A stretch of 64,000 nucleotides of DNA from an uncultured Clostridia bacterium (GTDB taxonomy: Bacteria > Bacillota > Clostridia > Oscillospirales > Ruminococcaceae). The notes under the pieces are model-generated. The model ran no database searches. It was not told the DNA's origin and saw only the letters and a program-made list of their open reading frames with translations. Position numbers and translations under genes: made by a program. Positions 21,597-38,833 of this stretch are shown here, piece after piece. Location: positions 1 through 64,000 of the forward strand of contig CANQXS010000002.1 in the NCBI GenBank assembly GCA_947627875.1. Direction: 5' to 3'. The stretch's first letter is position 1. Every line of letters begins with the position of its first letter.

Positions 21597-22150
21597 TCAG
21601 ACTTCATTGCCCCAGCAATCCCAGCCGTCTCTCTGTGCGCGAGCGTACATTTCAAGCTTCTTCTCGCTGGGATATAGTCTTTGAATTATATCAAAAGAGA
21701 CCTCTGGCTTTTGACTGTGGCGTTTTACTTGTTCCGTAAAAACGGTATGTATCTTGCCACGTTCTTCTTGTGCCACGGGTCTCAATTTGCCCTTATACAT
21801 ATATAATAAATATTCATGTCCGAATCTGACTGTAAAAGCCGCTGGTATGCCAGTCACCTTATTCCAGATTAAACGGGCATGAAGCTTGTAGCCTAATTTT
21901 TCAGCTATGTGCTGTGCCTCAAATAAATACTTATCTATTGTCCAAAGGAAGAGAACAGCGTTCTCACCTGTCAGACTATCTGCCTGTCGCAGGTGAGATT
22001 CAATCTCTTCCAGTGAGCAGGTCGGATATTCAAGCGGAAGCCCTGAGGACTTTTCTCTCACGTTCTTCCGCCCCCCCGCGACTGTTTCCACGGAGGATCG
22101 GCTAAAATTAAATCGTACTTCTCGTTTGTATTAAAAATGTCAATTACCAT
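21597..22150 (-). CDS. MT-A70-family adenine methyltransferase, frameshifted at a poly-G tract (copy 2)
   Basis: The gene starts at ATG 22150, overlapping the end of the first MT-A70 gene, and reads YDLILADPPWKQSRGG, containing the catalytic DPPW. At the G7 run (22071-22077) the frame breaks: with seven G the product ends a few codons later. With eight G it continues as RKNVREKSSG and then the whole MT-A70 body (VLFLWTIDKYL, HARLIWNKVTG, YMYKGK, VKRHSQKPEVSFDIIQRL, AQRDGWDCWGNEV). The enzyme would methylate adenine N6. Either a phase-variable gene captured OFF or a homopolymer error. Confidence 0.85.
22071..22077 (-). repeat. Poly-G (G7) tract inside MT-A70 gene copy 2
   Basis: Seven consecutive G on the coding strand directly after DPPWKQSR. 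One extra G (G8) restores the frame. Mononucleotide tracts of this kind are classic slipped-strand phase-variation sites. Confidence 0.8.
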
Positions 22151-22714
22151 TGCTACCTCTATCTTGAATATCTTCCACTTCGTCACCCCAGACATCCCAG
22201 CCCTCGGTTCGCTCCCTGGCAAACAATTCGATTCTGGGCAAATCTCCCATCAGTTCGACTATCTTATCGCGAACTTCGTCGGGTTTTTGACTGTGACGCC
22301 TGACAGGTGAAAACACAAGCTGCCTGACCTTTGCGCTGATACGCTTCGGATTACCCTTAATGGCTATCAAGCAAGGTTCAGAGTTAGCTCTTGTATATCT
22401 TCCAAGCCCGAAGAAATAACCAGGACTTTTGGCGTTCTCTTTGATCCACTGAAACGCCACAGTCTTGTATGTAAATCCCCAAGCTTTAATTAAATTGAGT
22501 GCCTCCTGTATCATGGGATATGTCGCCCACATAAAGAGTACACAGTCATCGGCTGCGATACCCCCCCATTTGAATTCACGGGTAAGGACTTCAACTCTTC
22601 AAGCGACATTGTGTTATAATGAGACGCGGCAGAACCGTTACACCCCGAATCATTATAAGACCACGGCGGGTCGGCATAGATAATGTTGTACTTCTTGTTA
22701 GGAAATGGTATCAC
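22140..22714 (-). CDS. MT-A70-family adenine methyltransferase, frameshifted at a poly-G tract (copy 1)
   Basis: Starts at GTG 22714 with a GGAAGG site: YNIIYADPPWSYND carries the DPPW motif, followed by MSLEELKSLPVNSNGG. At the G7 run (22561-22567) the frame shifts and ends after 16 codons. In the frame reached with eight G it continues IAADDCVLFMWATYPMIQ, then TVAFQWIKEN, FGLGRYTRANSEPCL, RRHSQKPDEVRDKI and FARERTEGWDVWGDE, a complete MT-A70 methyltransferase. The gene overlaps and precedes copy 2, making a tandem pair with the same defect. Confidence 0.85.
22561..22567 (-). repeat. Poly-G (G7) tract inside MT-A70 gene copy 1
   Basis: Seven consecutive G on the coding strand after LPVNSN. 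G8 would read Asn-Gly-Gly-Gly-Ile-Ala-Ala-Asp-Asp, joining both halves of the methyltransferase. Confidence 0.8.
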
Positions 22715-22728
22715 GTTGTTTCCTTCCT

Positions 22729-23001
22729 TTATTCTGAAATCTTAGATATACTGACTCCCAGCATATTAGCCTGTTCGGACAAATCCAAATCACTGAAAAT
22801 GTCGCTTAGGATTTCTTTTGCACATTCTTTGCAGTATTCTTCCTGTCCGTCGATTGCAAACTCCGCGCCCTCACGTCCGCACTTATCGCAGTAGTGACGC
22901 GGAACATGCCTGTATGGACAGCTGTCACCCAAACAACCTATTTCTTTTGGACAGCCCACACATTCGTCCTTGTATATAATCACCTTTTTTGACCTCAACA
23001 C
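22729..23001 (-). CDS. Zinc-ribbon protein, 90 aa
   Basis: Contains nine cysteines: CVGCP, GCLGDSCPYR, then CDKCG...CKEC, the last forming a standard zinc ribbon. The C-terminus is helical (LGVSISKISE). It overlaps the ThyX stop by 7 bases and precedes the MT-A70 pair. Similar Cys-rich proteins are common in Clostridia phages; role unknown. Confidence 0.65.
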   Translation of the reverse strand: MLRSKKVIIYKDECVGCPKEIGCLGDSCPYRHVPRHYCDKCGREGAEFAIDGQEEYCKECAKEILSDIFSDLDLSEQANMLGVSISKISE

Positions 23002-23666
23002 TCGATGTCGTCAAAGACAATCGGAATCTTTTCTTTAAGCTCTCTGCACAGCGGGATTGCGATTTCTCGCATTTGCGGGTGCGCCGCCTCTGCGGTTCTG
23101 AGTTTAAAGAAATGCCGCCATTCACGGTAGTTTGCGGTGACAATTATGTTCGTCTTGGTGGACGTCGGCAAAACCGAACGCGCAATCTGAGGCGTTGCGC
23201 CAAGCTTGATCATTTTCAGATAGTGAGACTGAGCGTCTTTCATAGCGTGTAACCATTCGGTGTATACGCTTAAGGTAGATTCGGAATCCAGCTTGCTTAC
23301 CTTCGAATCGTTTGACATACCGTCTGCAATATCAATAACGCTGATTTGATTTCCGAACTTATCATTAGCATAGTTGACATATCTTGTACTCTCCTGACCG
23401 AAACTTGCCAGTCTGTGTCTGACAATTTCGTGTGACACACCTCTGTCACATGTAAAAAGAACCGACAGAGAACTATGCTCTATCATAGCCTCGTGTCCGT
23501 TCTTGATCAGCATTGCTACCATTTTCTTTGCGCTTTCGCCGTCGGGCGTTATCCTATCCTCAGACTTATAACATACCCTTGCGGCTCGCTCTATTCTTTG
23601 AAGCTCTTCAATTCCACCCTCAGAAATCGGTGTCAGAATTTCATAGCCAGCCTTTATTACATTCAT
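22995..23666 (-). CDS. thyX: FAD-dependent thymidylate synthase ThyX
   Basis: A 223-residue ThyX converting dUMP to dTMP with methylene-tetrahydrofolate, FAD and NADPH. The signature is RHR (83-85) in RHRLASFGQESTRY, which fits RHRx(7)S with Gly where many homologues have Asn. Also visible are the N-terminal PISEGGIEEL and the conserved IARSVLPT and EWRHFFKLR segments. It works with the dUTPase of the same element to keep thymidylate supply independent of the host. Confidence 0.95.
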   Translation of the reverse strand: MNVIKAGYEILTPISEGGIEELQRIERAARVCYKSEDRITPDGESAKKMVAMLIKNGHEAMIEHSSLSVLFTCDRGVSHEIVRHRLASFGQESTRYVNYANDKFGNQISVIDIADGMSNDSKVSKLDSESTLSVYTEWLHAMKDAQSHYLKMIKLGATPQIARSVLPTSTKTNIIVTANYREWRHFFKLRTAEAAHPQMREIAIPLCRELKEKIPIVFDDIEC

Positions 23667-23668
23667 TG

Positions 23669-23881
23669 TTACCTCCTGATAGACACACTTGTATAAGAAT
23701 TATAAGCCTTAAGCTCGCTGTCTGTGACTTCAAGCCTTAAGCCAAATCTGTTTAGCAATATTTGTTCGATCAGACGACGCTGACCGAATTCAACTCCTGC
23801 CTGATAATCATCGTCTGCGTTAGCGACCTTTATTTTCGCGTATTCTTTAAGCAAATATTCTGCCACACCTAAGTCATTCAT
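23669..23881 (-). CDS. Hypothetical protein, 70 aa
   Basis: Starts at ATG 23881 (MNDLGVAEYLL) with GGAGG seven bases upstream, overlapping the end of the CCA-enzyme gene by 8 bases. Mostly helical; residues GVEFGQRRLIEQILLNRFG suggest an amphipathic helix. No family recognised. Confidence 0.55.
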   Translation of the reverse strand: MNDLGVAEYLLKEYAKIKVANADDDYQAGVEFGQRRLIEQILLNRFGLRLEVTDSELKAYNSYTSVSIRR

Positions 23882-25220
23882 TTTTAATCCTCCGCGATAA
23901 GTATCCCAGCAGCTCTTCTCTGTCATTATTGAGCTGACCGTCTATTACCAAATTCAGAATCTCGTTCAAATAACCGCCCACTCTTTTACCCTGTTCTACT
24001 CCGAAAGCCATTATGTCATATCCGTTGACCTTTAAGTGTTTGACTTGATAGCTCTCTTCCTCCTGTAAAACCTGTTGCAGATATGTCGTAAATGAATCCA
24101 GTTTTGCCAAACATTCGGGCTGGCAAAAATCTGAGTGCGAGAGAATGTCTGCCCGCCTTACTTCTATCAGCCTTAAAAGCTGCTCTTCACCAAGCTTATT
24201 CAGCCAGCGGCGAGCTGTCTTCAGAGAAGGAGCCAGCTCACCGTCGTGGCACAGGACAAGCTCAGTAATGCTGTCTTGCTCGTATCGGCTAAACTTCAAT
24301 CTATCAACTACTCTTGTTGCTAAATCGTAGCTTGTTTTGGCGTGGTCGTAAAAGTGACCGCCCTTTTCGTCTTCCGTATAGCACTGCGGCTTGCCGACAT
24401 CGTGCAGAAGAAGCGACATTTTAACGATGATATCGTTACCCTTATAGCTTTCGATTACTCTGACTATATGCTCGTATACGTCATACTTGTGAAACCTGTT
24501 GTTTTGATTGAATCCGATACAAGGCTTGATTTCTGGAATGATTGTGGCGATTATATCGCTGTATGCCAGCAACACATTGGCGGCGTTACTACCACTTAGT
24601 AACCCGCACAGTTCAACATTGATTCTTTCCGAAGCAATCCTTTTGAGCAATTCTCGGTTACTGTGAATCGCCTCGGAAGTCTTACCGTCGATACTGAATC
24701 CGTACTTTGACGCAAATCTCAACGCCCGCATTATTCGCAAAGCGTCCTCATTAAACCTGTCATTCGGGTTGCCGACACAAGAAATCTGTTTGTCGGCTAT
24801 GGCTTGTCTGCCGTTAAATGGATCCACAAGACCGCGGATATCATTATAAGCTATCGCGTTCATTGTAAAATCCCTGCGCGACAAATCTTCTGTTATATCA
24901 TTAACAAACGTCACAGAATCGGGTCTGCGACAGTCTGAATATTCTCCGTCTTTTCTGAATGTAGTTACTTCATATTGTCGGTCATCATTTCCTACCACGG
25001 TCACAGTACCGTGCTTTAAGCCCGTACAAATAATCCGATAATCATTAAACGCCTCTTCAACCTCGGGCGGAGTAGCGTTTGTGCATATATCCCAATCTTT
25101 AGGCACTAAGCCAAGCAAGCTGTCTCTTACACACCCGCCTACCAAGTAAGCCTCATGTCCGAGACTACATAGCCGACTGATAATTTTGCTTGCTTCGGCG
25201 GGCATTGTGATTTTAAGCAT
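23874..25220 (-). CDS. cca: CCA-adding tRNA nucleotidyltransferase with HD domain
   Basis: A 448-residue class II nucleotidyltransferase. The catalytic core is LVGGCVRDSLLG with D42-W-D44, then RRDFTMNAIAY, the basic IMRALRFASKYGF helix and template-type EDALR residues. After the neck and body there is an HD domain (LLLHDVGKPQ, HFYDH). The enzyme rebuilds or adds the 3' CCA of tRNAs. It overlaps the RlaP-type nucleotidyltransferase by 8 bases. The phage also encodes an RNA ligase and tRNAs, so tRNA repair is the likely context. Confidence 0.92.
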   Translation of the reverse strand: MLKITMPAEASKIISRLCSLGHEAYLVGGCVRDSLLGLVPKDWDICTNATPPEVEEAFNDYRIICTGLKHGTVTVVGNDDRQYEVTTFRKDGEYSDCRRPDSVTFVNDITEDLSRRDFTMNAIAYNDIRGLVDPFNGRQAIADKQISCVGNPNDRFNEDALRIMRALRFASKYGFSIDGKTSEAIHSNRELLKRIASERINVELCGLLSGSNAANVLLAYSDIIATIIPEIKPCIGFNQNNRFHKYDVYEHIVRVIESYKGNDIIVKMSLLLHDVGKPQCYTEDEKGGHFYDHAKTSYDLATRVVDRLKFSRYEQDSITELVLCHDGELAPSLKTARRWLNKLGEEQLLRLIEVRRADILSHSDFCQPECLAKLDSFTTYLQQVLQEEESYQVKHLKVNGYDIMAFGVEQGKRVGGYLNEILNLVIDGQLNNDREELLGYLSRRIKNE

Positions 25221-26235
25221 ATAGCGATCTCCTGTTTACGCTCATAACGAACTCCTCTATGCGTTTCATATTGGGGTGCTGAGGCAGACTGGTGTTCTGC
25301 TTATCGTACTGGAGCCTCTTTTCGCACTCGGAAACCAAATCAAAGAACTCAGAACGGTATGTACCGTCCTCATTCTGGTATTTTCCCTTTCTTATATCGA
25401 GCAAAAGGTCTCGATCGTCCGCTCTGTATGTGATTATGTCCTCTTTTTCCAGAATATCAAAGCACATCAGGTAAAGTCGAATGAGGTGCATAGCGTGTTT
25501 GTTAAGGTGTTCGTCGTCTTTTTTGTGATTTCGGTGATTGAGCTTATCATAACTCCTGACTACTGCGGTCAGAGTATTAAGCATTGTCGAAAAATCTCTG
25601 ATTGGATACTTTTTGATATTTATATCGCAGAAAACCTCAATATCCTTATCATCTTTGTCGCTCTTGTCGGTGTAAAGCTTGATACTTTCGTCACTAAGCT
25701 CGTTATGTTTGTCTTCAAATGCCGACATAGAACGCTGGAGAGCCCCTTGAATATGCTTTTCGGACATATCTTGAGGCATTTTATCCCTTGCCAGCGCATT
25801 TTCAAGCCGTCTGAGCTGTTGGGTGGCGTATCCGCCGAAAGAAGCTACCGCTCTTTGCGATAAAAACATTTTTCGGGCGTTAATCAGTTCTTTGCCGATG
25901 TATGTCATAATAAAATAATGCTCAGGCTTGCAGCCCAAAAGCTCTATGGTATTAGGATTACAGTTAAGCAACAGACTTATGAGCTTATTAAAGCTATAAA
26001 CAGTCGTATCGGTCTGAGAATTGACAAGTTGCTCGAAATTACTTAAACCGATGAGGTCACTCGGACTGTTTAAAGCACACCCTCTGATATCTACGTCGGA
26101 AGTTTCGACGTTTGTACCGTAAGCGTGGCTGCCACCAAGCGTTAGAAAGATAATTTTGTCCTTAACGTGGGGATTTTCACGCAGAAAATCATAAGATTCG
26201 CTGTTGATCAGCGACCTAATCGCTTCAATATCCAT
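25213..26235 (-). CDS. RlaP/YcgL-type nucleotidyltransferase
   Basis: A 340-residue polymerase-beta-fold nucleotidyltransferase with GGSHAYGT (34-41) and DVDIRG (47-52), matching the RNA-ligase-associated (RlaP) group seen in phages and RNA-repair operons. A long helical C-terminal domain follows (CFDILEKEDIITYRADDRDLLLDIRKGKY). It is translationally coupled to the CCA-adding enzyme, supporting a role in RNA end repair or modification. The substrate is not known. Confidence 0.82.
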   Translation of the reverse strand: MDIEAIRSLINSESYDFLRENPHVKDKIIFLTLGGSHAYGTNVETSDVDIRGCALNSPSDLIGLSNFEQLVNSQTDTTVYSFNKLISLLLNCNPNTIELLGCKPEHYFIMTYIGKELINARKMFLSQRAVASFGGYATQQLRRLENALARDKMPQDMSEKHIQGALQRSMSAFEDKHNELSDESIKLYTDKSDKDDKDIEVFCDINIKKYPIRDFSTMLNTLTAVVRSYDKLNHRNHKKDDEHLNKHAMHLIRLYLMCFDILEKEDIITYRADDRDLLLDIRKGKYQNEDGTYRSEFFDLVSECEKRLQYDKQNTSLPQHPNMKRIEEFVMSVNRRSLYA

Positions 26236-26244
26236 TGAATCACC

Positions 26245-26391
26245 TCATTCTCCTTCGTAAGTATCTAATAAATCTGCAAGTTCGCTTTCATCGCCCGAAG
26301 ATACACAGGCGACAACCGTATCTATCAGTTCTTCGTCGCCGCAGTAACGCAACGCCTGAATAAGCCTGATAGCAAGATTCAGAATTTCCAT
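26245..26391 (-). CDS. Small acidic protein, 48 aa
   Basis: A short ORF from ATG 26391, with GGGAGG eight bases upstream, to TGA 26245. The sequence (MEILNLAIRLIQALRYCGDEE..., ending DLLDTYEGE) is helical and acidic at its C-terminus. It fills the gap before the RlaP gene in the same operon. Function unknown. Confidence 0.55.
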   Translation of the reverse strand: MEILNLAIRLIQALRYCGDEELIDTVVACVSSGDESELADLLDTYEGE

Positions 26392-26408
26392 TCGACGCAC
26401 CTCCCTTG

Positions 26409-27074
26409 TCAAGCACTCTTCTCTATCTCTTCAAAAACTATCTGTTTAGGCAACATATGACTGCACAGATAAACACTGCTGAACGGCGGATTAAGCGAGG
26501 GTTTTTGCTCACCATAATCCTTAAAGTATGCGACACGTTTATTGAGATACATAATCTCAAAGTCGTGATTCTTGAACATATTAAAACGCTCCTGGCTCTC
26601 AAACAGTCCGACAACACCTACGAGCATAGCGAAGGGCTTTCCGATTTCAAATAGACGCTCGAAAACCTTGCCTTTTACTGAGTAGGGCGGATTACTGATT
26701 ATATAATCGCAGTCGGGAACATCAGTCTTAAAGAAATCGACGCCGTTTTGAATGTGCGTTGCGATAACTTCATAGCCCAACTCACGAAAATACTTTACAA
26801 ACAGACTATCGTCAGTGTCAAACGGACACCAGATTTTTGAGGAACGCGGTATGTATTTTGCTATCGGCTTAACAGCATATAACGGAGTATAGAACTCATC
26901 GTTACCGCTATTAGCCACTTTATCCATCTTAATATCTAACAACTCCTTATACTCGGTACATTCCCGATTGATATTATTTATAATAAAAGGCTCTCTAACG
27001 CCTATGCATACAAATTTATTTGGCTCGGATTTAAAATACCCTTTACAACAAGCCTTACAGTCTTTACACTTCAT
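26409..27074 (-). CDS. DNA N6-adenine-type methyltransferase (NPPY)
   Basis: A 221-residue protein with an N-terminal Cys cluster (MKCKDCKACCKG). A methyltransferase-like body follows: FYTPLYAVKPIAKYI, IWCPFDTDDSLFVKYF, THIQNGVDFF, and the catalytic IISNPPYSVKGKVFE (NPPY). The order X-SAM-region-then-NPPY fits a Dam/beta-class enzyme, but the glycine-rich SAM loop is weak. It overlaps the 3' end of the C5-methyltransferase by 11 bases and belongs to the modification block. Confidence 0.75.
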   Translation of the reverse strand: MKCKDCKACCKGYFKSEPNKFVCIGVREPFIINNINRECTEYKELLDIKMDKVANSGNDEFYTPLYAVKPIAKYIPRSSKIWCPFDTDDSLFVKYFRELGYEVIATHIQNGVDFFKTDVPDCDYIISNPPYSVKGKVFERLFEIGKPFAMLVGVVGLFESQERFNMFKNHDFEIMYLNKRVAYFKDYGEQKPSLNPPFSSVYLCSHMLPKQIVFEEIEKSA

Positions 27075-27730
27075 TTGATTTTGCCTCTATACTATGTAAG
27101 TCCTCACATATTTTTACAATGTGGTCGCATAATTCTTCTGGTATTCTTGAACGCTCAATGCTGCCTTTCAGCCCCTGAGTGCCTGTAGCCGATCCTCTCG
27201 GCGCAGGAACGTGACACTTGTCTCCGTTATGACATATCGGTTTAAAACACGGATTCGGGTGATTTGTCCAGATATCCGTTGGTTTCATTCTTGTATCTCC
27301 ATACTGACAATACGTTACGGTATATCTTGGGAGATTACGCATAAACCTCATCTTGCGTAACCCCCCCCCGCGGGTTTTCAATAAACCAAAACTTTGGCTG
27401 TAATTCCGAAATCAATTTAAGAACGTGTTGATTAACGCTGTCGCAAAACTTGGCATATTCGCTGACGGGAGATAGATTTCCGTCCTCTTCTTTGTGACGG
27501 TAGTGACTGATTGCCGCGATACTGTATGTTGTGCAATCGGGCGACGCCCATATCACGTCTGGTTTTCCAAACTTTGAAAGGATTTCTTCTGCCGTTACCT
27601 CTGCAATGTCCTTATATAAATCAATGTTCTTAAAATCCTTATTCCATTCTACGGAAAATACTTTGTGTCCTCTCTTTTCAAATGCCTTGCCTATCGAACG
27701 AGTGCCAGCAAATAATTCTAAAACTTTAAT
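27064..27730 (-). CDS. C5-cytosine methyltransferase-like gene, frameshifted at a poly-G tract
   Basis: The 5' part reads IKVLELFAGTRSIGKAFEKRG, FGKPDVIWASPDCTTYS (catalytic Pro-Asp-Cys) and KFWFIENPRGG. At the G9 run (27361-27369) the frame runs out within nine codons. With eight G it continues LRKMRFMRNLPRYTVTYCQYGD, DIWTNHPNP and GLKGSIERSRIPEELC, the normal end of this phage Dcm-like family. The start is also odd: the in-frame start would be ATT 27730 behind AAAGGAG, while the nearby ATG 27735 is in another frame. Phase OFF or sequence error. Confidence 0.82.
27361..27369 (-). repeat. Poly-G (G9) tract inside C5-methyltransferase-like gene
   Basis: Nine G on the coding strand encode the Arg-Gly-Gly of the conserved ENPRG motif. 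Eight G would join the two halves in frame. Confidence 0.8.
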
Positions 27731-27769
27731 ATCATTCTCTCCTTTCCTCGATTCGGTAATTAATACTGA

Positions 27770-27988
27770 TTATTTATCAAGGCAGTATGTCTTTCGTGTT
27801 GGTGAACAAATATCCCCACAATACGGGCAGGGAACCCAATCGGACATCATTGACACACCGCAGGGATATTTCTTGGTCGTCACCATAGTGTTTCTCTTTA
27901 TGATATCGGATAAGCTGAACTTAAAAATAGTGCCACACTCAGGACATTCCTGAACAAAGCACTCATCGTCTCTATGTATGATTGTCAT
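27770..27988 (-). CDS. Zinc-ribbon protein, 72 aa
   Basis: Two Cys pairs, CPECG and CPYCG, plus further Cys residues make a likely zinc ribbon. The N-terminal part is beta-rich. It lies upstream of the frameshifted C5-methyltransferase. Function unknown. Confidence 0.6.
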   Translation of the reverse strand: MTIIHRDDECFVQECPECGTIFKFSLSDIIKRNTMVTTKKYPCGVSMMSDWVPCPYCGDICSPTRKTYCLDK

Positions 27989-28002
27989 TTTAACCTCCGT
28001 TC

Positions 28003-28248
28003 TTAATCGGGTTCGTTATATGGTGTTGGATCCTCGCCTAAAACTCTCAGAACCGAACGGAACATTGCGCGGGCTTCCTTCTGATCCTCGACTTTACCTT
28101 GCTTGACAACTTCATTGATTGTTTGCGTTAACATAAAATCTATCATTAAAAGCAAAGCAAAATTACCCTGTTCTGCGTTCTGGCAAGCCTTTTCAAACTT
28201 CTTCTGCAAATTTAAGCAGTCGTCTACAGTTATTTCTCTAACGCTCAT
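28003..28248 (-). CDS. Hypothetical helical protein, 81 aa
   Basis: Almost entirely helical (LNLQKKFEKACQNAEQGNFALLLMIDFML...), without recognisable motif. Overlaps the upstream zinc-ribbon gene by 11 bases. Member of the leftward operon. Confidence 0.55.
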   Translation of the reverse strand: MSVREITVDDCLNLQKKFEKACQNAEQGNFALLLMIDFMLTQTINEVVKQGKVEDQKEARAMFRSVLRVLGEDPTPYNEPD

Positions 28249-28429
28249 TAGTGCCTCCTTGTTCTCGGGTGCAATATGTTGTTACATGCCCGCAGACTGG
28301 ACAAACTACATAAGTTACGGGAGGCGTTAAATCCTTTTGTTCAAAGAATAAACACCTACCGCACCGACAAATCACACCGTCTTGTTCGTTTCCCTCAAAA
28401 GCGGGAGACCAGCTCACTCTGATTTTCAA
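28238..28429 (-). CDS. Zinc-ribbon protein, 63 aa
   Basis: Contains CRCGRC and CPVCG, the two halves of a small zinc ribbon, with short beta-strands between (TYVVCPVCGHVTTYC). Probably a DNA- or RNA-binding accessory. No closer family is recognised. Confidence 0.6.
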   Translation of the reverse strand: MKIRVSWSPAFEGNEQDGVICRCGRCLFFEQKDLTPPVTYVVCPVCGHVTTYCTREQGGTNER

Positions 28430-28441
28430 TGATTTTCACCC

Positions 28442-28696
28442 CTAATCAAAATCTTCGGAGAATATATTTTCGGGCTGGAGGTTGACAGACTTTACTGAAA
28501 TATATCTGGATAAGACAGCTGCCGTTTCAAAACCATAGCCTCTCGTATCGACATAGGCTGTATCGTCCTTTGTCAAATGCCTGAGCAGTTTAAAACAGGC
28601 GTCCTCTACATTATCCGCCCTTACAACACCAGCCTTTTCACCTACGATTGAAAGGCGTATTCCGTGGTCGATATCTGTAGTGATAAATATTAACAT
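28442..28696 (-). CDS. Hypothetical protein, 84 aa
   Basis: Alpha/beta pattern (MLIFITTDIDHGIRLSIVG, then EDACFKLLRHLTKDDTAYVDTRGYG). No catalytic motif or family recognised. Preceded by an AGGAG-type site and tightly packed with its neighbours. Confidence 0.55.
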   Translation of the reverse strand: MLIFITTDIDHGIRLSIVGEKAGVVRADNVEDACFKLLRHLTKDDTAYVDTRGYGFETAAVLSRYISVKSVNLQPENIFSEDFD

Positions 28697-28699
28697 AAT

Positions 28700-28882
28700 T
28701 TACTCCTTTTTACTTGTCTTAAATTCCTTATGGATTGGATATTCATTGAAATCAACTCTATCAAATTCGCAAAGATAGAGATAATGACGATAACACTTAA
28801 GTGCCTCTGAGGCGTTATCAAAAATATCAATGATAGGATTGTCGCCGTAATAATAGCGAGTCACAACCCAGACGGTTTGCAT
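28700..28882 (-). CDS. Hypothetical protein, 60 aa
   Basis: Begins MQTVWVVTRYYYGDN, with beta-strand then helix (ASEALKCYRHYLYL). Preceded by AAGGAGG. Similar short proteins occur in phages, with no known role. Confidence 0.55.
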   Translation of the reverse strand: MQTVWVVTRYYYGDNPIIDIFDNASEALKCYRHYLYLCEFDRVDFNEYPIHKEFKTSKKE

Positions 28883-28912
28883 TAAAATCCTCCTTACACT
28901 GACGAAATGGTT

Positions 28913-31328: not shown

Positions 31329-31556
31329 TTAATTTCGTTCACAATTATCGCAATCGCCGTTACAATAAACCGTGTCGCCCTGACACTCATGCTTAAAAAC
31401 CTCCCTGGAAACGGGAGGCGGATTGACTTTACTGCAACAGCGATCGCAAAGCATTAGCTCTGTATTTAGAATTTTTACGCTATAAATCGTATGATAATCG
31501 TATAGTTCCTTGCCGCAATTATCACAAAAGCCCTTAAACTTATAAGGAAAACTCAT
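31329..31556 (-). CDS. Cys-rich zinc-binding protein, 75 aa
   Basis: Cys pairs CDNCG and CDRCC form a zinc ribbon, and a third cluster (CQGDTVYCNGDCDNC) lies at the C-terminus. It overlaps the stop of the upstream C5-methyltransferase by 4 bases. Function unknown. Confidence 0.65.
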   Translation of the reverse strand: MSFPYKFKGFCDNCGKELYDYHTIYSVKILNTELMLCDRCCSKVNPPPVSREVFKHECQGDTVYCNGDCDNCERN

Positions 31557-33115
31557 TGGCGTACCTCACAATATTCAGGCAGATTTGCCCTGACAAGCTC
31601 GGTTGCGACAGGCGGTGTTACCGCATTTCCACAACGAGCAACCTGTTTGGTTCTTGAATAGTGATTGCCCTCAGCGTCGTGGTCTATGATATAATCTTCT
31701 GGAAAACCCATCATTCTGAACTGTTCCCTCGGCGTCAGCATACGCATTTTGATATCGGCAATTATATAATCTACGCCGTGAATCGTTATCAATGCAAATC
31801 TGTCGCGGGAAGTTATCGTATCGACGGGTTCATTTAGTGACTTAGCAACGCCAGTACTGAAGTATTTAACCAGAAAAGCCTGAACTTCGGCGTGGTGTGC
31901 GCCAGAACAAGAGATTGTTGACAGCGGTTTTTTCATACTCTGACCGACCATATTATTACGCATGGTTACTATGTAAGAAAGCGTCATGTTGTCGTCTCCT
32001 TCTTTAGAACCCTTGTCCTGATGAGGCTCGGGCGGAGTATACTGACTGTAGTCTCTCATAAGCTCTGCAACGGCAAGCGCATATCTCGGGCTGGTGTCGA
32101 GGGTCATAATCGGTTCTGAAACCCTTTGACCTCTGACTGAGTTTTCGGAAGTTTCGCTGTGATACTGAATCAAAATCGGCGCAACCAAATAGTGGCTACC
32201 GACTGTAGTTATGGTTGAAAGCGGCTGTTTAATACTCTCGGGCTCGTTATCGTATTTGTAGTTGACTATGAACGGCTCGGGATCGTCGATACAAAACTTC
32301 TTAATACCCTTTGCTATGCGCCTTAAGGTCTTTTCTGCTAAAGGTCTTTCGCGACCGAATATACTTACTGGCTCAATGCTCCAATCAATACACTCGGCGG
32401 CGGTTCTGTAGGGCTTAAGATTCCCTGTAGGAACCTCGGCATATGACGGCTCAGGCCAGACAATAGGCTTGCCGTCGCTTCTCGCTATCATATAAAACCG
32501 CTCTCTTGTGGTCGGGGCTCCGTAGTCACAGGACTTCAATTTCCTATACTCAATGTTGTAACCAAGACCACGCGAGAGTTGGTCGGCTTCTTCGCTGTTT
32601 ATATCTATGTCAAGAGCGCCGCAGCACTCAATAAAGGCGGGGTGTTCCTTCGGAAGCCCCGTAGATAAAATCTTTATAAACCCGTTGAAAGTTTCTCCGA
32701 TTCTGGACTTGATGGGCTTATTGTCCTCGTCGAGCGGACACCATGTCTGAATCTCGGGTACATTTTCAAGCATAATAACCCTCGGTCTGACCGTCATAGC
32801 CCAGCGAATCGTGACCCAAGCTAAACCGCGAATGTGTTTATCGACAGGTTTGCCGCCTTTTGCTCTGCTGAAATGCTTACAGTCAGGCGAAAACCACGCC
32901 AATGCCACGGGATTACCCTCACAAGCCTCTATCGGATCAACTTCAAAAACGTCTTCCGTATAATGCTTTGTTTTGGGGTGGTTGACTTTGTGCATTGCTA
33001 TAGCGTCGGGGTCGTGATTGATCGCGATATCTACACTCCTGCCGATAGCGACTTCTATACCTGTTGAGGCACCTCCGCCACCCGCAAAATTATCAACGAA
33101 TAACTCTCTTTTCAT
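31553..33115 (-). CDS. dcm: DNA (cytosine-5) methyltransferase
   Basis: A C5-methyltransferase of about 520 residues starting at MKRELFVDNFAGGGGASTG (motif I). The catalytic cysteine lies in WFSPDCKHFSRAKGG (motif IV), ENVPE is motif VI, and RERFYMIAR is motif VIII. At the C-terminus RQMMGFP-like MMGFPEDYI and QVARCGNAVTPPVA form motifs IX-X. Intact and without a poly-G tract, unlike its shorter relative at 27 kb. An in-frame upstream start (33163) is possible. It probably protects phage DNA from restriction. Confidence 0.94.
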   Translation of the reverse strand: MKRELFVDNFAGGGGASTGIEVAIGRSVDIAINHDPDAIAMHKVNHPKTKHYTEDVFEVDPIEACEGNPVALAWFSPDCKHFSRAKGGKPVDKHIRGLAWVTIRWAMTVRPRVIMLENVPEIQTWCPLDEDNKPIKSRIGETFNGFIKILSTGLPKEHPAFIECCGALDIDINSEEADQLSRGLGYNIEYRKLKSCDYGAPTTRERFYMIARSDGKPIVWPEPSYAEVPTGNLKPYRTAAECIDWSIEPVSIFGRERPLAEKTLRRIAKGIKKFCIDDPEPFIVNYKYDNEPESIKQPLSTITTVGSHYLVAPILIQYHSETSENSVRGQRVSEPIMTLDTSPRYALAVAELMRDYSQYTPPEPHQDKGSKEGDDNMTLSYIVTMRNNMVGQSMKKPLSTISCSGAHHAEVQAFLVKYFSTGVAKSLNEPVDTITSRDRFALITIHGVDYIIADIKMRMLTPREQFRMMGFPEDYIIDHDAEGNHYSRTKQVARCGNAVTPPVATELVRANLPEYCEVRQ

Positions 33116-33140
33116 ATCCGATATGTAAATCACCTCTTGC

Positions 33141-33908
33141 TTAACTTTCTGTCTTAACTTCAAGCTTATCTATTGCCTCTCTGACCTTTTCAACGTATCT
33201 CGTGGAATAAATGCCGTCGGCTACTAAATCCTTAGTTCCATAATATCCAGTGTTGTATGACATAAGCGCAACGTTTATAATGAAATCCTCTGAAGACATA
33301 CCGTGGTCGTCAATGGTCGGCTCTAAATCAACGCCGAGTGAATAGCCGTCCTTATAAATTGAAATTCCCGCAAGGATGCACTGCTCTGGGTTAGTTAAAT
33401 CACTCACGCCCAGCTCATCAAGCCTGTCTTTATGAATGGTGGACACCTGTAAAATGCCTATGCAGTTACCGTTGCTGACGTCTGTCTTGAATCTGCTCTC
33501 AACGTGCATCATAGCAAGGATTATTTCAAAATGATTCTCGGGCAGCTCGTTATCGGACAGAACCTGTCTGATATAGTCCTGCATATCATTCGACAAGGGA
33601 ACATCATAGTATAAAATGTCACTTTTATTTTCGCTCTCAACGGGCTCAGAAGCCTCTACAATGCCCTCAACGACGTAATCGGGGATAAAATCGCGCTGAA
33701 TCGGAGCTGCTACATATGTGGGGATATTTGCGTCATATGCCTCGGTGTATGCAGTAGTTTGCGCTGACTCTTTTTCATAGTCGGCACTGACCGAATTGTC
33801 GTGGTCAAGCAAACAGGCACACAAAACGAGAGCAATAATCAACCCGCCTATCACACTTCCGAAAACAGCTTTACGACTGCCCGATTCTATCCGCAAATAA
33901 TTATTCAA
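33141..33908 (-). CDS. Membrane-anchored lytic transglycosylase (SLT domain)
   Basis: A 255-residue protein with an N-terminal transmembrane segment (VIGGLIIALVLCACLL, about 17-32) that resembles a lipoprotein or signal-anchor. A low-complexity linker follows, then an SLT domain with catalytic Glu in AMMHVESRF, then IGILQVS and ALMSYNTGYYG. It cleaves peptidoglycan. Its place among early genes rather than lysis genes suggests local wall remodelling or superinfection functions; that is inference. Confidence 0.88.
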   Translation of the reverse strand: MNNYLRIESGSRKAVFGSVIGGLIIALVLCACLLDHDNSVSADYEKESAQTTAYTEAYDANIPTYVAAPIQRDFIPDYVVEGIVEASEPVESENKSDILYYDVPLSNDMQDYIRQVLSDNELPENHFEIILAMMHVESRFKTDVSNGNCIGILQVSTIHKDRLDELGVSDLTNPEQCILAGISIYKDGYSLGVDLEPTIDDHGMSSEDFIINVALMSYNTGYYGTKDLVADGIYSTRYVEKVREAIDKLEVKTES

Positions 33909-33929
33909 TTTACCATCTCCTATATCTTC

Positions 33930-34214
33930 TCAGAAATTTATGCAATCTCTTATGATTCTCTGGCGTTCCAAATCGTCGTCGAAGTCACGCCATAAAACCG
34001 TATTGTATTTTTCTGTTACATCTCCTGTAATATCAAAAAGCCTATTGCCGAACTGCGCCATAAAATGATTCGCAATAGGATCGTAAGCCAGTTGAGCCTC
34101 TTTGAATCTGCCGCAAAGAATGTGAGCGAACCAGTAGCAGCAGCCGTTGGTAAAAACCTCGTCAATGTTATCGGAAAAATGGAACCTCTTTATAAACTTT
34201 TCCTGTTCACTCAT
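33930..34214 (-). CDS. Conserved phage protein with GCCYWFA motif
   Basis: A 94-residue protein of a widespread Firmicutes phage family: EVFTNGCCYWFAHIL, then YDPIANHF, then LFDITGDVTEKY. The invariant Cys, His and Asp in that order resemble a papain-like triad, though no activity is established. Overlaps the next upstream gene by 8 bases. Confidence 0.7.
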   Translation of the reverse strand: MSEQEKFIKRFHFSDNIDEVFTNGCCYWFAHILCGRFKEAQLAYDPIANHFMAQFGNRLFDITGDVTEKYNTVLWRDFDDDLERQRIIRDCINF

Positions 34215-34665
34215 CGGGAATCACTGCAAATCCGTCGGAAATCACCGCAAGTTCAATTAAACTTTGAATCCCTATGCACTCTCCAGGCTGAACGAAAGAA
34301 AATACCTTAGAATCAAATGTGGTGCAGCAACTGTATATGCCAGCGCTGTAATAACCCACGGTTCTGTCACATTTGAAACCGCCGCGTTTGTAAACCCAGC
34401 GAGGCTTATCTTTCCACACGCTGACCGTATGCAAATTAGGCATATATGAATCCCTGCTTATATATCTGGCACCGATTTCATAAAGCCATTTAAGACCTTC
34501 ATACTCGGTTTTAGTTACAAAAAATTGTTCATTCATTCTTGAATAATTCGGAGTGATTGCTTTACCTGATGCGCCAGACGGACACTCGCTGCAAGAATCG
34601 CACTGGCATAAAGCCTTACGAGCCTCTTCAATACTTTTAAAAGTTGTCTTTAATCTTATTTTCAT
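34207..34665 (-). CDS. Paralogous Cys-cluster phage protein (family member 1)
   Basis: Starts at ATG 34665 with AAGGAG seven bases upstream. The N-terminus (FKSIEEARKALCQCDSCSECP) and the middle part (LYEIGARYISRD...N-x-HTVSVWKDKP), ending in PGECIGIQSLIE, match three other genes of this window (38823-39254, 39256-39459, 55438-55890). The Cys cluster probably binds zinc. Function unknown; expansion within one phage is notable. Confidence 0.7.
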   Translation of the reverse strand: MKIRLKTTFKSIEEARKALCQCDSCSECPSGASGKAITPNYSRMNEQFFVTKTEYEGLKWLYEIGARYISRDSYMPNLHTVSVWKDKPRWVYKRGGFKCDRTVGYYSAGIYSCCTTFDSKVFSFVQPGECIGIQSLIELAVISDGFAVIPDE

Positions 34666-34687
34666 TTGCCATCTCCTTAGATGGCGG

Positions 34688-34996
34688 CTAACCGCCGCCT
34701 TTGTTCTCTGAATTCTGATTATCGCCGCGAGCCCTGAGCCACTTGATCCAACCAACTTGCTTTTGCAGCTCTTTAAGGTTCACAATAACAATCATTTTCT
34801 CTGGTTCTTGAAAACTGCGAGATAAGAAAAGAGCATACCTCAATACGCTCTTGACTGTTCTCCTATGTCGATCGCCCCAAACCAACGCATATATAACCCT
34901 GCCGACAAACAAAATCAAGCAAGCTGTGATTATGCTTAAGCAGATTATTATTGTCGCTTTGGGAGGTGAATTTCCAGAATGAGCTAACAGTATCAT
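34688..34996 (-). CDS. Membrane protein, 102 aa
   Basis: Starts at ATG 34996 with GAGGTG upstream. One strong transmembrane helix (IIICLSIITACLILFVGRVIYALV) followed by a basic cytoplasmic tail. No family recognised. Confidence 0.6.
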   Translation of the reverse strand: MILLAHSGNSPPKATIIICLSIITACLILFVGRVIYALVWGDRHRRTVKSVLRYALFLSRSFQEPEKMIVIVNLKELQKQVGWIKWLRARGDNQNSENKGGG

Positions 34997-35003
34997 AGAC
35001 ACC

Positions 35004-35639
35004 TCATATCTCATACTCGTCGTAGTGTTCGTCGAGACAAATGCATCTCATAAAAGCCTCGTGTGTGGGGAGATTATCCAACGAATATGACACAAGCAAG
35101 CGAGGCGGGTAGGAGGTCTCCTCGGCGTCTTTGTATTCATCAAAAATCGCAAAGTCGCGGAACCTTTCACCCTCGCCGAGAGGTTCTGTGTTCATTCCCT
35201 GATAAACCTCGAATGTGTTCTTGGAAAAATCAATCACATAAACCCACTCGCAGAACAAGCAGTCGCCCACAAACTCAAGACTGGATATCAAATCAATGCC
35301 GGGTATATCGGATATAATAACGGACAGAATATCGGCATTTAGATTCTTACTAAAATAGGGGTGATTTGCAATGAACTCGTCGTGCTTTTCATCCGATACA
35401 TTATCAGTAAAAATATCAACGCCGATATCTGCCCACATTTGCGACCGCTCGGCTATACTGACATACCGACATTTCTTAAGCCCAGATAACAAAAGATTTT
35501 TTCTTTTTTCGGAATCCTCGCCACTCAGAAAATTGAGTGCGTTTGTTCCTGTGGTTTCTGGAGAGGCGTCGCGGCAATACTGACTGACACGATATTCTCC
35601 TTCCTTGTCAACTACACATATAAGTCCTCGTGAACTCAA
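35004..35639 (-). CDS. Conserved phage hypothetical protein, 211 aa
   Basis: Begins MSSRGLICVVDKEGEYRVSQYCR and ends LPTHEAFMRCICLDEHYD. The pattern (WVYVIDFSKNTFEVYQG) resembles Ntn-like or cell-wall-unrelated phage proteins seen repeatedly in Firmicutes phages. No catalytic motif is clear, and the function is unknown. Confidence 0.65.
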   Translation of the reverse strand: MSSRGLICVVDKEGEYRVSQYCRDASPETTGTNALNFLSGEDSEKRKNLLLSGLKKCRYVSIAERSQMWADIGVDIFTDNVSDEKHDEFIANHPYFSKNLNADILSVIISDIPGIDLISSLEFVGDCLFCEWVYVIDFSKNTFEVYQGMNTEPLGEGERFRDFAIFDEYKDAEETSYPPRLLVSYSLDNLPTHEAFMRCICLDEHYDEYEI

Positions 35640-35675
35640 CAGCTCTACCTCCTTAAATACTTACACGCCAAAGAA

Positions 35676-36185
35676 TTAAAACGAATAAACCCACCTTTTA
35701 TACCCGCCTACACGGTACACGCCGTCGTCTAAATCGTCTTCGGTCAGACTTGCAGGCAGACTGAACTCCGCCTTGAAGTCATCAAACGAATCAAATTCGT
35801 CCTCGGCATAGTAATACTCCGCATAGTCAACCTCCTCAGAAACCTTGCATTCGCCGTGGTCGTATATGTAATGCTCCTGGAAACCGAAACCGGGTTCGGA
35901 AGAGTAGGCTTCCATAACAAGATTTAATTCCTTTGTGTTAATGGCAAACAAGTCCTCACTGTCAGCCATATTATTTTGACTGCAAGCGAACAAAGACCAA
36001 GCACATTCGCCGCAGATAAACATCTGCCAGTTCTCGTCACCATTGACTATATAATCATAAACGTCAGCCGAATAAACCCTGTGAAAATGATTAGGTTCGG
36101 AAGAATACATCATTCTTTTGACCCACGCTTCACAATCTCTACGTGTGCCTTTGATTTTCATTTCAAAATAGCAATCGTTAGCCAC
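35676..36185 (-). CDS. Conserved phage hypothetical protein, 169 aa
   Basis: Starts MANDCYFEMKIKGTRRDCEAW, a form of a common phage family (MAN-x-C...). Acidic throughout, with many aromatic residues and a C-terminal beta-rich part (VYRVGGYKRWVYSF). No known activity. Confidence 0.65.
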   Translation of the reverse strand: MANDCYFEMKIKGTRRDCEAWVKRMMYSSEPNHFHRVYSADVYDYIVNGDENWQMFICGECAWSLFACSQNNMADSEDLFAINTKELNLVMEAYSSEPGFGFQEHYIYDHGECKVSEEVDYAEYYYAEDEFDSFDDFKAEFSLPASLTEDDLDDGVYRVGGYKRWVYSF

Positions 36186-36198
36186 GGCGATAACCTCC

Positions 36199-36669
36199 TT
36201 ATCTTGATATATTTTCAGGTAAAAACGGGTGTTTCTTTTCGCTCAGTGTCTTGAGTTCCACCACCGCTCCCTTGAGCGATGCATATAACATTCGTGAGCG
36301 ATCGTTGACGTGACGGTAGGTGTCACGGGCTTCTGGCGACATCTTGTCCTGCGGGGCGCGTTCAAGAGTTGTCGCGCCCTTCTTAAATTCGTTGAAACCT
36401 CTCTTATAATGCCTGAGAGAATTGGCGACATAGTTATCGGGTTCGATAGTTCTGTAACCGTCTCCGCGAATCGACTCGATAATCATGCCGTATTTGTTGA
36501 GCAAAATTTTCTTTGCTTGCTGCACGACTGCAAGATACTTCTGACTCGGATACGGTTCCTGAATTATCCGAGAAATCTCGTCGTGCATGATGATGTGACC
36601 GTATCCTGTTTTGGCTAAAGCCTCCGCAAGAACTTCTGATTTCTTCTTGTTCTTAATGATTTCGTTCAT
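36199..36669 (-). CDS. Putative winged-helix phage regulator, 156 aa
   Basis: Helical N-terminal region (IIMHDEISRIIQEPYPSQKYLAVVQQAKKILLNKYG) followed by SIRGDGYRTIEPDNY resembles winged-helix proteins in Firmicutes phages, with a basic recognition segment. The C-terminal half is helical. It is the first gene before the pentamer array upstream of its promoter region. Confidence 0.6.
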   Translation of the reverse strand: MNEIIKNKKKSEVLAEALAKTGYGHIIMHDEISRIIQEPYPSQKYLAVVQQAKKILLNKYGMIIESIRGDGYRTIEPDNYVANSLRHYKRGFNEFKKGATTLERAPQDKMSPEARDTYRHVNDRSRMLYASLKGAVVELKTLSEKKHPFLPENISR

Positions 36670-36715
36670 CTTAAAAATCCTTTCTTACAAAATATAATAG
36701 TTATGAAATGGCTCA

Positions 36716-37150
36716 AAATGCTTAACTCAGCATAGCATGGCGGAACGTAGCATAACCAAGCTCAACGCAACCAAACATATAATGCATAACACAACAAAAC
36801 TGAACGCAACATATCCCGACCTGTCTTAAAATGCTCAGCTTAACTTAACCGACCATAACGAAGCCAGTCGCGACTAAACAAATCATATAATGCTCAACGC
36901 AACATAGCTTAACACAAATAGTCCGTTACCTCATTTGTTTTATATGTAAAATCATTACATTGCTTTGCTTGAGTGACAAGGAGGAACAGCCTATGAAAAT
37001 AATTTCTACTTTCGTAATCACTTTCTTTAAAAATGCCTAACAAAACTCAGCCAAACAGACCTTAGCTAAACTCGCCTTAAAATGCATAACATAGCAAAGC
37101 AAAGCCAATCATAGCATATCCCGTCTAAACTTAGCGAGGCAAAAAAATGC
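36716..37150. repeat. Degenerate pentamer-repeat region between two genes
   Basis: A 480-base gap containing six blocks in which, on the plus strand, almost every fifth base is C and the two preceding bases are mostly purines (NNRRC; examples TTAAC TCAGC ATAGC ATGGC). About fifty pentamers follow this rule. Blocks start with AATGC (36717, 36781, 36830, 36889, 37032, 37081, 37146) after ATAT or TTAA. Intervals are 64, 49, 59, 49 and 65 bases, mostly 5n-1. A mini-ORF lies in the middle (36993-37040). No protein frame spans the region. Confidence 0.75.
36978..37040 (+). CDS. 15-residue mini-ORF with strong SD, only plus-strand candidate in the phage
   Basis: AAGGAGG at 36978-36984 precedes ATG 36993 by eight bases, and the frame ends at TAA 37040 after 15 residues (MKIISTFVITFFKNA). 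The peptide is hydrophobic with a positive N-terminus, like small signal or toxin peptides. It is the only well-formed ORF on the plus strand of the phage region, between two pentamer arrays. It could equally be a chance ORF. Confidence 0.4.
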   Translation, partial: KEEQPMKIISTFVITFFKNA

Positions 37151-37729
37151 TCAATCGAGTTCTTCTATTATCGCCGTAAACTTGCCGTACTTCGGACGTG
37201 AGTCGCAAAGCCCGACATAAAGACCAGCGTTTTCTATTGCCAGAGTAATGGTTTCGAGATCAATCTTGCTCTCATCATACTGTAGATTAAAGGTTATCTT
37301 CCACCTGTCAAAACGAGGACGGGTACGAGCGATTTTAGATCTCATAACCGTCATCATTCTGGTATCGCGATATTTATAATTGGAAATCAGCTCTTCCTTT
37401 GTGAGGTTCTCGCCGTAATCAAGCGGGATATAGATATCGGTGACGGTGCAATACTTTTCAAAATCCTTGCCCTTCTTATTAGCCTTTGCGCCGTTCAGGA
37501 TAGTGGCTTCAACATTTTCGGCAGGGATATAAAGCCCGAGACCTTCCTTCCAATAAGCCCCCGCCTCCCATTCGAGATCGGAAATCTTTATCAAATCTTC
37601 ATCGGTTTTCTTTCTCTTGCTGGTATACTTCTTCATTTCTTTTGCAATCGGGTGAAGAGGATTCGCACACTGGCAGGAGTGCATAATCAGCGGGGTGAGG
37701 CCTTTCCAAGTGATTCTTAAATTCTTCAT
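37151..37729 (-). CDS. Conserved phage protein, 192 aa (unknown function)
   Basis: Begins MKNLRITWKGLTPLIMHSCQC, a start shared by a family of phage proteins found near modification or recombination genes. Beta-rich with a basic central region (TRMMTVMRSKIARTRPRFDRWKITF). No catalytic motif is identified. It follows the PP-loop enzyme in the operon, with 28 bases between. Confidence 0.65.
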   Translation of the reverse strand: MKNLRITWKGLTPLIMHSCQCANPLHPIAKEMKKYTSKRKKTDEDLIKISDLEWEAGAYWKEGLGLYIPAENVEATILNGAKANKKGKDFEKYCTVTDIYIPLDYGENLTKEELISNYKYRDTRMMTVMRSKIARTRPRFDRWKITFNLQYDESKIDLETITLAIENAGLYVGLCDSRPKYGKFTAIIEELD

Positions 37730-37757
37730 AAATTCAATTCCTTTCTTTCATACATAA

Positions 37758-38833
37758 TTAAACGGACTCGTTGAGCCCGTCTTCTACATTTTTGTTTTCT
37801 GTTCTTCTTTTGTGCTTATACTCAACATATTTGCGACGATATTCGTAGCTCTTGCCAAAGATATTCCAAGCCGCTTTCACGACATTGGGCTCATAAGGCC
37901 GAATCTTTTCGAGGTCTTCGATTGCCTTATAGCTTATCGGGCAACCGCAGCAGCCTGTCCGAGTTAAACCATATACTTCATAAGCGTCCGAATAGCGGAT
38001 TCCGTAATGCTCTTTGTACCACGCCTTGTCTTTATCACTGACATAATAAAGAGGACGAAGCCTGAATTTCTCGTCTGCCTGTTGAGCAAAGCAAGCCGTA
38101 TATCCTTCTGGACAATACAGAGAAGCGCGCTGTCCGCCCTCCGCCTGTCGTTCGCCTGTAATGATTAGGTCATAATTTTTCTGAGCCTTGCGGGCGGGAA
38201 GCTTCTTGCAGTAATGGCAGCACTGTGCGCTTATCTTAAAATCGGGAGGATTTTCGTCCATAAAGTCTGCCAAATGCTCAGCAGATTTGAGACAAAACTG
38301 CCCCGCATTTGGGCGGGGCTCACCTTCGGTATCGCAGGAAAGCAGGAAAACAAGCGCACTTTTACGATTAGGATACCGCTTGTTAAGCTCCCAGAACTTT
38401 GCACGTTTATCTTCGGCTTGATTGTATTCCTCGATTACCGACATCGGAATGTTGCCTTTCATTGTGTCACCAAGCTTGCGGCTGAAAGCCTTTGAGATAA
38501 AAGGTATACCATAGGTACGGGCAGCTTTTACAATTCCGACTTCTGGACGGCACTCACGAATCTCAACACCGTACTTTTCAGCAACCTCTTTAACGTGGTC
38601 TTTAGTCGCTTTCATCTCAAGCCCCGTGTTATAGAACACATAGTCCACCTGAGGCAAATCAAACATTTTACGAACACGCTCAATCAAGTCTATGAGAATG
38701 TCGGAGTCTGCCCCCCCGAATAGGAACAAATCGCTTTCGGGTGTTCCTTAAGCCGCCGAGCGATTATGCTTTCAATCGCAAGAAACTTTTCGGGAGAATC
38801 GAAATCAGCATAAGCAGGACGATTACTTCGCAC
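37758..38833 (-). CDS. PP-loop ATPase (PAPS reductase/DndC-like), frameshifted at a poly-G tract
   Basis: The gene starts at GTG 38833 inside the end of its upstream neighbour (GAGGTG site). It reads ESIIARRLKEHPKAICSYSGG, the PP-loop strand. At the G7 run (38711-38717) the frame ends within seven codons. With eight G it continues ADSDILIDLIERVRKMF, completing SGGxDS, then the remaining 320 residues (FYNTGLEMKATKDH, ISKAFSRKLGDT, CHYCKKLPARKAQ, LIITGERQAEGG, TGCCGCPI). The enzyme class activates substrates with ATP; DndC relatives make DNA phosphorothioate. Exact role is inferred only. Confidence 0.82.
38711..38717 (-). repeat. Poly-G (G7) tract inside PP-loop gene
   Basis: Seven G on the coding strand encode the Ser-Gly-Gly of the PP-loop. 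G8 joins SYSGG to ADSD in frame. Confidence 0.8.

Follow-up and report, generated by a model that had tools for sequence, protein, structure and literature searches.

Out-of-frame poly-G tracts in four modification-type genes of a Clostridia prophage as candidate phase-variation tracts

The first 64 kb of contig CANQXS010000002.1 (210.6 kb; here C2), from the 2.57-Mb, 50-contig draft genome GCA_947627875.1 of an uncultured Clostridia bacterium, form the window analyzed here and carry part of a large prophage. Four modification-type genes of this prophage (two encoding MT-A70 family adenine methyltransferases, one a small C5 cytosine methyltransferase, and one a PP-loop protein resembling PAPS reductase) are each broken at a run of G. 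We regard phase variation, in which the tracts act as contingency loci and change length by slipped-strand mispairing, as the best explanation of these four runs and as probably the correct one.

The four tracts (three C7 and one C9 as the contig is numbered, read as G because the coding strand is the minus strand; Table 1) are the only C or G runs of seven or more in the window, as an earlier note on this DNA had claimed. There are no runs of six, and the next longest are ten C5 runs and one G5; in the remainder of C2 (64-210.6 kb) the longest C/G runs, six in number, are exactly 6 long. That note's account of the genes, with runs of G7, G7, G9, and G7 that are out of frame, both halves intact, and G8 as the length that joins them, was likewise borne out by a check of runs and frames. 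In all four genes the reading frame is open both before and after the tract, the frame-joining length is 2 modulo 3 (which 8 fits), the present length differs from this in all four, and the upstream frame ends at a stop 6 to 18 codons past the tract start. Every one of the four runs thus lies within a modification-type gene and breaks its frame. As at a contingency locus, a homopolymer tract sits within the reading frame, its length setting whether the product is full length or truncated, and coding is intact on both sides with no other lesions, with the caveat that the small C5 gene lacks an ATG where its relatives start: the corresponding codon (near 27730; window 27725-27745) is ATT here, with no in-frame ATG at that place. 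An ATG does occur nearby in another frame.

Table 1. Tracts, the genes that carry them, and an unbroken C5 methyltransferase gene for contrast (window coordinates)
Feature	Position	Strand	Remarks
G7 tract, MT-A70 gene 1	22561..22567	-	just before the strand homologous to (D/E)(D/N)CVLFMW
MT-A70 family adenine methyltransferase gene 1, frame-broken at 22561-22567	22140..22714	-	downstream half, PADLOC MTase_II 2e-46
G7 tract, MT-A70 gene 2	22071..22077	-	right after DPPW motif, (K/R)GG site
MT-A70 family adenine methyltransferase gene 2, frame-broken at tract	21597..22150	-	Pfam MT-A70 1.2e-17, downstream half
G9 tract, small C5 methyltransferase gene	27361..27369	-	FIENPRGG site
Small C5 cytosine methyltransferase gene, frame-broken at tract	27064..27769	-	open from 27769; phrog_757 on downstream half
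G7 tract, PP-loop gene	38711..38717	-	inside PP-loop motif SGGxDS
PP-loop / PAPS-reductase-like gene, frame-broken at tract	37758..38833	-	Pfam PAPS_reduct 6e-12; phrog_424
Second, larger C5 methyltransferase, one open reading frame	31553..33163	-	Pfam DNA_methylase 3.5e-26

The breaks are confined to the tracts. From related loci of viruses and hosts we took 5,731 open reading frames (ORFs) of at least 120 amino acids and aligned them to the window and to the 60 kb beyond it, counting a break wherever one ORF matched two frames of one strand (positions are alignment midpoints, and so approximate, in 150-nt bins); relatives covered 29.4 kb of the former and 12.5 kb of the latter, or some 42 kb that could be checked. 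Within this, coding-strand breaks with more than two supporting loci fell only at or beside the four tracts. The break in MT-A70 gene 1 was seen by 84 related loci, that in MT-A70 gene 2 by 32 (bin from 22050) plus 15 (next bin downstream), that in the small C5 gene by 32, and that in the PP-loop gene by 120. Other coding-strand signals drew one or two loci each, at 38,550 (beside the PP-loop tract) and 39,150, and antisense shadow matches drew up to eight. Nor did 970 alignments reveal a coding-strand stop inside any other relative-covered gene of the window, the stops listed being gene ends, positions before a gene, or alignments running past a tract. This confinement argues against general decay or poor assembly. 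In the same assembly, several host genes carry in-frame G7-G10 tracts, and in others the tract is out of frame.

The number of tracts is not in itself striking. Analytic Markov estimates (orders 1 to 4, C plus G, per window) predict about 0.6 to 1.5 runs of at least seven, so that the observed four are only mildly unusual, and about 0.02 to 0.07 runs of at least nine, where one is observed. Unlike the number, the placing of the tracts is not due to chance. The four genes together span approximately 2.9 kb, or about 2.6% of the ca. 110-kb prophage; moreover, across 38 ORFs of the window, among them the downstream half of the PP-loop gene, GGG accounts for 12.5% of the Gly codons, and none of the 53 Gly-Gly pairs is written GGG-GGG. 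The larger C5 methyltransferase gene of the same prophage (31553..33163) contains no G/C run of six or more.

Both frame states are found at the same sites in related phages. Among 80 viral loci aligned at the SGGxDS site of the PP-loop gene (one of which does not cover the site and another of which is aligned out of register), three carry G8, two in frame and one out, and the rest have two to six G; of 50 host-genome loci examined (54 found), two carry G7, both in frame. For the ENPRGG site of the small C5 gene, 41 loci were compared, three of them unreadable there; four carry G7, which is in frame in three and out of frame in one. Two of these relatives, L049 and L365, are frame-broken in the same way and at the same sites as the window genes. 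Exact-pattern scans of IMG/VR, which reach only the codons present in the patterns, returned four contigs with the PP-loop tract and seven with the C5 tract (as G7, G8, or G9), three of each already among the relatives; all the C5 hits are in frame. The two MT-A70 genes behave differently. At the gene 1 site, 35 of the 36 relatives shown (38 found) lack Gly-Gly, the exception being L251, which has G6 with extra residues, so the window tract lies in extra residues outside the family core; the earlier note's placing of every run at a Gly-Gly spot therefore concerns a conserved feature at three sites, but not at this upstream gene. Tracts do occur elsewhere in relatives of gene 1 (G8 in L254; G9 in L261-L264, whose sequences are near identical; G7 in L282), and a relative of gene 2, L212, is frame-broken at a G9 run elsewhere in that gene, for which the best viral relative is 81% identical.

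Relatives of the PP-loop locus that bear names are mostly gut and rumen Clostridia assemblies; no close relative was found among the isolated phages of INPHARED (best match 57.5% for the PP-loop protein, 76% for the C5 enzyme, and under 60% for the MT-A70 enzymes). Within the same genus, the PP-loop protein is matched in 3 of 31 genomes (its own included). In one of these, G016, the PP-loop gene is intact and has no tract, and an N6/N4 methyltransferase gene of the G016 prophage is frame-broken at a C9 run (C6 36,950; L137:16950). Three more C8-C9 runs lie 12 kb from that broken gene (G016:C6 48,463-49,371; L138). In another, G018, the gene for a PP-loop relative, which aligns as two pieces with 35% and 52% identity, has its frame broken by a C7 run on the coding strand (C2 of that genome, 46,213-46,219; L139), at a point where relatives carry Pro-Pro; this case agrees with the phase-variation reading.

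Modification genes of related loci are also enriched in such tracts. In loci picked for carrying a modification gene rather than for tracts, with reference proteins drawn only from this prophage and that of G016, runs of at least eight G were present in 9 of 285 modification ORFs versus 12 of 3,810 others (p=4.7e-6), and in 5 of 168 versus 12 of 3,808 (p=5e-4) when the PP-loop class was left out; C and T runs in the related loci showed no bias toward modification ORFs. An alternative reference set gave 16 of 332 versus 5 of 3,763 (p=3e-14), a test that is partly circular because genes bearing tracts had supplied some of its reference proteins. Sorting 45 tract pieces (run of at least eight, half of at least 50 amino acids, from 112 runs of at least seven) by Pfam family yielded six DNA_methylase, four MT-A70, four PAPS_reduct, three N6_N4_Mtase, and one MethyltransfD12 match, together with six further families of one member each; among 118 control ORFs there were five PAPS_reduct and one MT-A70 match in the 25 of 73 families shown. 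This tally agrees with the enrichment, with the proviso that it counts pieces, of which several can stem from a single gene.

Some related phages carry more than one tract gene. L188 combines a C5 gene bearing G8 and G10 with an N6/N4 gene bearing G9, and L254 has a D12 gene with G13 in addition to its MT-A70 gene. A third case, contig G426, carries two broken genes in L415, one of N6/N4 type at G8 and a phrog_757 gene at G10, as well as a C5 gene with an in-frame G8 (L400). Two further methyltransferase genes, at L314:3892-4393 and L117:9552-9759, hold three G tracts each, including a G14 in L117.

A near-identical copy of the prophage was not found in the viral or genome contigs searched, from which the records nearest to the window's genome may be excluded; the best longer PP-loop matches were 66 to 68% identical, and four short partial ones were 66 to 84% identical. 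A comparison of tract lengths among related phages, which the earlier note had proposed, was made on loci with near-identical flanks, three INPHARED records having entered it. These formed 42 clusters, most of them a single contig represented twice, and of the nine that joined distinct contigs, one varied and eight did not. The variable cluster lies near the C terminus of a PP-loop gene, with G9 in three contigs and G10 in the fourth, which alters the C-terminal tail; after the tract the G10 contig is identical to the G9 contigs at 700 of 700 bases, and before it at 633 of 700. Among other clusters (duplicates included), length varied in 3 of 1,477 with runs of six or fewer G and in 0 of 262 with A7 or longer.

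The phase-variation interpretation, first offered in the earlier note, is therefore supported in part: by the type of tract, the confinement of the breaks, the occurrence of both frame states in relatives, and the enrichment. Several observations weigh against it. Most relatives encode Gly-Gly with mixed codons, a sign named in advance as one that would speak against the idea and now partly seen, with only a minority carrying the PP-loop and C5 tracts: 77 of 80 PP-loop and 37 of 41 C5 loci have fewer than seven G at the site, and at the MT-A70 gene 2 site none of 79 loci has six or more (one does not cover the site, and some 30 are distant). Where PP-loop and C5 tracts do occur at the same site, the frame is mostly kept: in 10 of the 12 viral contigs, and in 12 of 14 sequences once the two host loci are added. 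Eight of the nine distinct-contig clusters hold a single length, including one with G9 in four contigs, and at none of this prophage's own four sites, each known from one assembled sequence, are two lengths shown. Runs of A8 or longer are mildly enriched in modification ORFs as well (odds ratio 2.2, p=0.002). Finally, a tract of G7 offers little length for rapid switching, and both MutS and MutL are present in the host, so that loss of these proteins is not supported as a cause of slippage.

An unlikely rival is one-way loss at weak points, by which genes that are unneeded or harmful in the lysogen would suffer their first knockouts at the longest G runs; the tracts would slip, with no selection for return. 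That all four genes are off here speaks for it, given that in related viral loci G8 and longer tracts are in frame 15 times and out of frame 8 times (by a crude frame call), as does the tendency of near-identical relatives to keep a single length; short tracts together with MutS and MutL would slow any return. Yet there is no other well-supported frameshift and no coding-strand stop in the other relative-covered genes of the window, both halves are intact, the genes hit belong to three different enzyme families, and the tracts recur in relatives at two sites. Moreover, the tract of MT-A70 gene 1 lies in extra residues, which loss alone would not produce.

Homopolymer error in sequencing or assembly, at four tracts that are truly in frame, was raised in the earlier note as the alternative, and we consider it distinctly improbable. 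The genome is a draft in 50 contigs, and single-base runs are the usual place for such errors; the errors would, however, have to go in both directions (three tracts short and one long), in an assembly that renders G7-G10 tracts in frame in several host genes, and L049 and L365, in other records, are broken alike at the same sites. Even then, the presence of four tracts in modification genes would still need explaining. Slightly less probable again is programmed ribosomal frameshifting or transcriptional slippage, whereby the tract would yield some full-length enzyme and so govern its dose instead of acting as a heritable switch. A run of G could serve as a slippery site, and the two halves have been kept in every case; against this, RNA structure gives the idea no support, the predicted fold being unremarkable at three sites (z -0.2, -0.7, and -1.3) and only weakly unusual at the C5 gene (z -2.0), shifts in both ways would be required, and the majority of relatives show either mixed codons or tracts that are in frame. 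A chance origin of the G runs at conserved Gly-Gly sites, favored by an expectation of about one run per window and by the three sites at which Gly-Gly is conserved, is very improbable with all four runs in so small a share of the prophage, all breaking the frame, with no GGG-GGG among the 53 Gly-Gly pairs, and with enrichment in relatives.

If phase variation is indeed at work, a G run would gain or lose a base by slipped-strand mispairing as the prophage, or the infecting phage genome, is copied, and each such change would shift the enzyme between full-length and truncated frames. We infer that the changes are reversible, with a slippage rate and a modification phenotype to match. With four independent tracts, as many as 16 combinations of modification states might exist in a phage population, and these may serve as a hedge against host restriction, against defences that depend on modification, or against what it costs to modify the host during integration. 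All four genes of the sequenced lysogen are in the truncated state; it may be that lysogens favor the off state, or that losses are one-way. One speculative possibility is that a replication fork run by the polymerase of the phage evades host repair.

More broadly, and only tentatively, since we would put this at somewhat less than an even prospect, large phages of gut Clostridia may carry a multilocus, switchable modification code in which several enzymes, each with its own slippery G tract, specify many heritable states of DNA marking as a hedge against host restriction. In the present prophage such a code would be joined with a diversity-generating retroelement (DGR) acting on another protein, and the tracts would arise repeatedly at the same conserved Gly-Gly positions and, in some cases, within residues that are newly inserted.

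Several known systems resemble parts of this arrangement. In bacteria, slippage at G runs is an established mechanism. For Campylobacter phages, PMC11868660 attributes to Sorensen et al. 2021 the demonstration of phase variation in phages by way of receptor-binding protein switches, and the same study (Cell Rep 35:109214) is also cited in PMC10877375 and PMC9311878. As far as these sources describe it, the likeness lies in phage-borne G tracts that switch genes by slippage; the difference is that the switched gene encodes a receptor-binding protein, whereas here DNA-modification enzymes are concerned, carried by a prophage whose host is a Clostridia-like gut bacterium. Phasevarions, as presented in the portions consulted of PMC13076061, PMC12003011, and PMC11868660, share with our tracts the use of simple repeats, including poly-G, that join or break the frame of a methyltransferase, as does a G9 tract in a Helicobacter methyltransferase (PMC12003011). 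Those are bacterial restriction-modification genes, whereas the genes described here belong to phage MT-A70, small phage C5, and PP-loop families and stand four together. No nuclease match was found among ten proteins tried in PADLOC, a trial that did not search the neighbouring genes exhaustively. PamA, a prophage methyltransferase of Staphylococcus aureus, offers a further likeness in that a phage methyltransferase could alter the state of its host, and the portion of PMC13076061 consulted describes no repeat-driven switching for it.

A phage-borne set of repeat-switched modification genes was not found in the literature searched, a scope outside which most subscription journals and all bioRxiv preprints fall. 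Poly-G switching and phase-variable methyltransferases are already known; a multigene modification set under G tracts in a phage, recurring across phages, is apparently new. In the excerpts of the literature consulted, phage DNA modification is treated as a fixed trait. If the phase-variation reading is true, the outcome of restriction, phage methylomes, and host-range assays would all depend on tract state, and annotation pipelines that call such genes broken would miscount a functional reserve. Tract length would also be directly comparable to the methylome within one phage stock.

The identity of the PP-loop enzyme deserves comment. Against models of PAPS reductase the protein scores over the cut-off in Pfam and below it in NCBIfam (cysH included), and the predicted model of an intact relative, L045 (mean pLDDT 78.7), has its best matches among APS/PAPS reductases with a CysH-like fold (TM-scores 0.31-0.41 by query length, 40 matches with E <=0.001). 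Domain match and predicted fold thus place it in the PAPS reductase (CysH) superfamily, and that half of the earlier label "PAPS reductase/DndC-like" stands. The other half does not: no DndC model in Pfam, NCBIfam, or PADLOC matched at E 0.001, and the best alternatives were PAPS/APS reductase models below the NCBIfam cut-offs and a weak match to BrxP. With DndC unsupported, a firm assignment as DNA methyltransferase holds for only three of the four (in the small C5 gene, the upstream half matches the dcm superfamily at 1e-5, under the cut-off). A role for the PP-loop gene in DNA modification is a guess from the company it keeps and from family resemblance.

That the set is phage borne, as the earlier note had it, follows from base composition and from PHROGs matches. 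GC content is 0.41 to 0.48 from about 5 kb to 114 kb of the contig, 0.52 in the first 5 kb, and mostly 0.49 to 0.56 beyond, and the sign of the GC skew flips near 64 kb. The low-GC stretch has PHROGs matches to integrases, DNA primase, a DnaB-like helicase, exonucleases, thymidylate synthase, anaerobic ribonucleotide reductase, NAD-salvage genes, terminase large subunit, and tape-measure protein, and a Pfam match to DNA polymerase III alpha. It is a large prophage of approximately 110 kb, its ends being approximate. The same prophage bears the marks of a DGR: a pair of 114-nt repeats at C2 106,720-106,833 and 107,017-107,130 (L130:2720-2833 and 3017-3130) with 16 differences, 15 of them at A of the second, template-like copy; a phage-type reverse transcriptase at C2 109,702-110,760; and, at the 3' end of a 557-amino-acid ORF, the variable copy of the repeat pair. 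DGRs work by templated mutagenesis at A, altering codons of the target gene. They resemble the tracts in bringing about stochastic variation of phage genes and differ in that their effect is on codons, that of the tracts on the reading frame.

G tracts also seem to be in use in the host lineage, since the host genome has 33 G runs of at least seven in total (the window's four included) and G8 runs are present in 20 of the 21 genus genomes searched (its own included). Host tracts of G8 or longer (L014-L035, L121) are preceded by C in 18 of 19 cases and followed by TA in 16 of 19, with an AT-rich, AAATTTC-like stretch at -10 to -4, and in two of them (L018 and L035) the tract sits as a spacer within promoter-like surroundings. 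This context is not shared by the phage tracts. Elsewhere in the host genome, at C23 1329-1344 (L036/L037), a C7-TT-G7 palindrome lies outside any long ORF.

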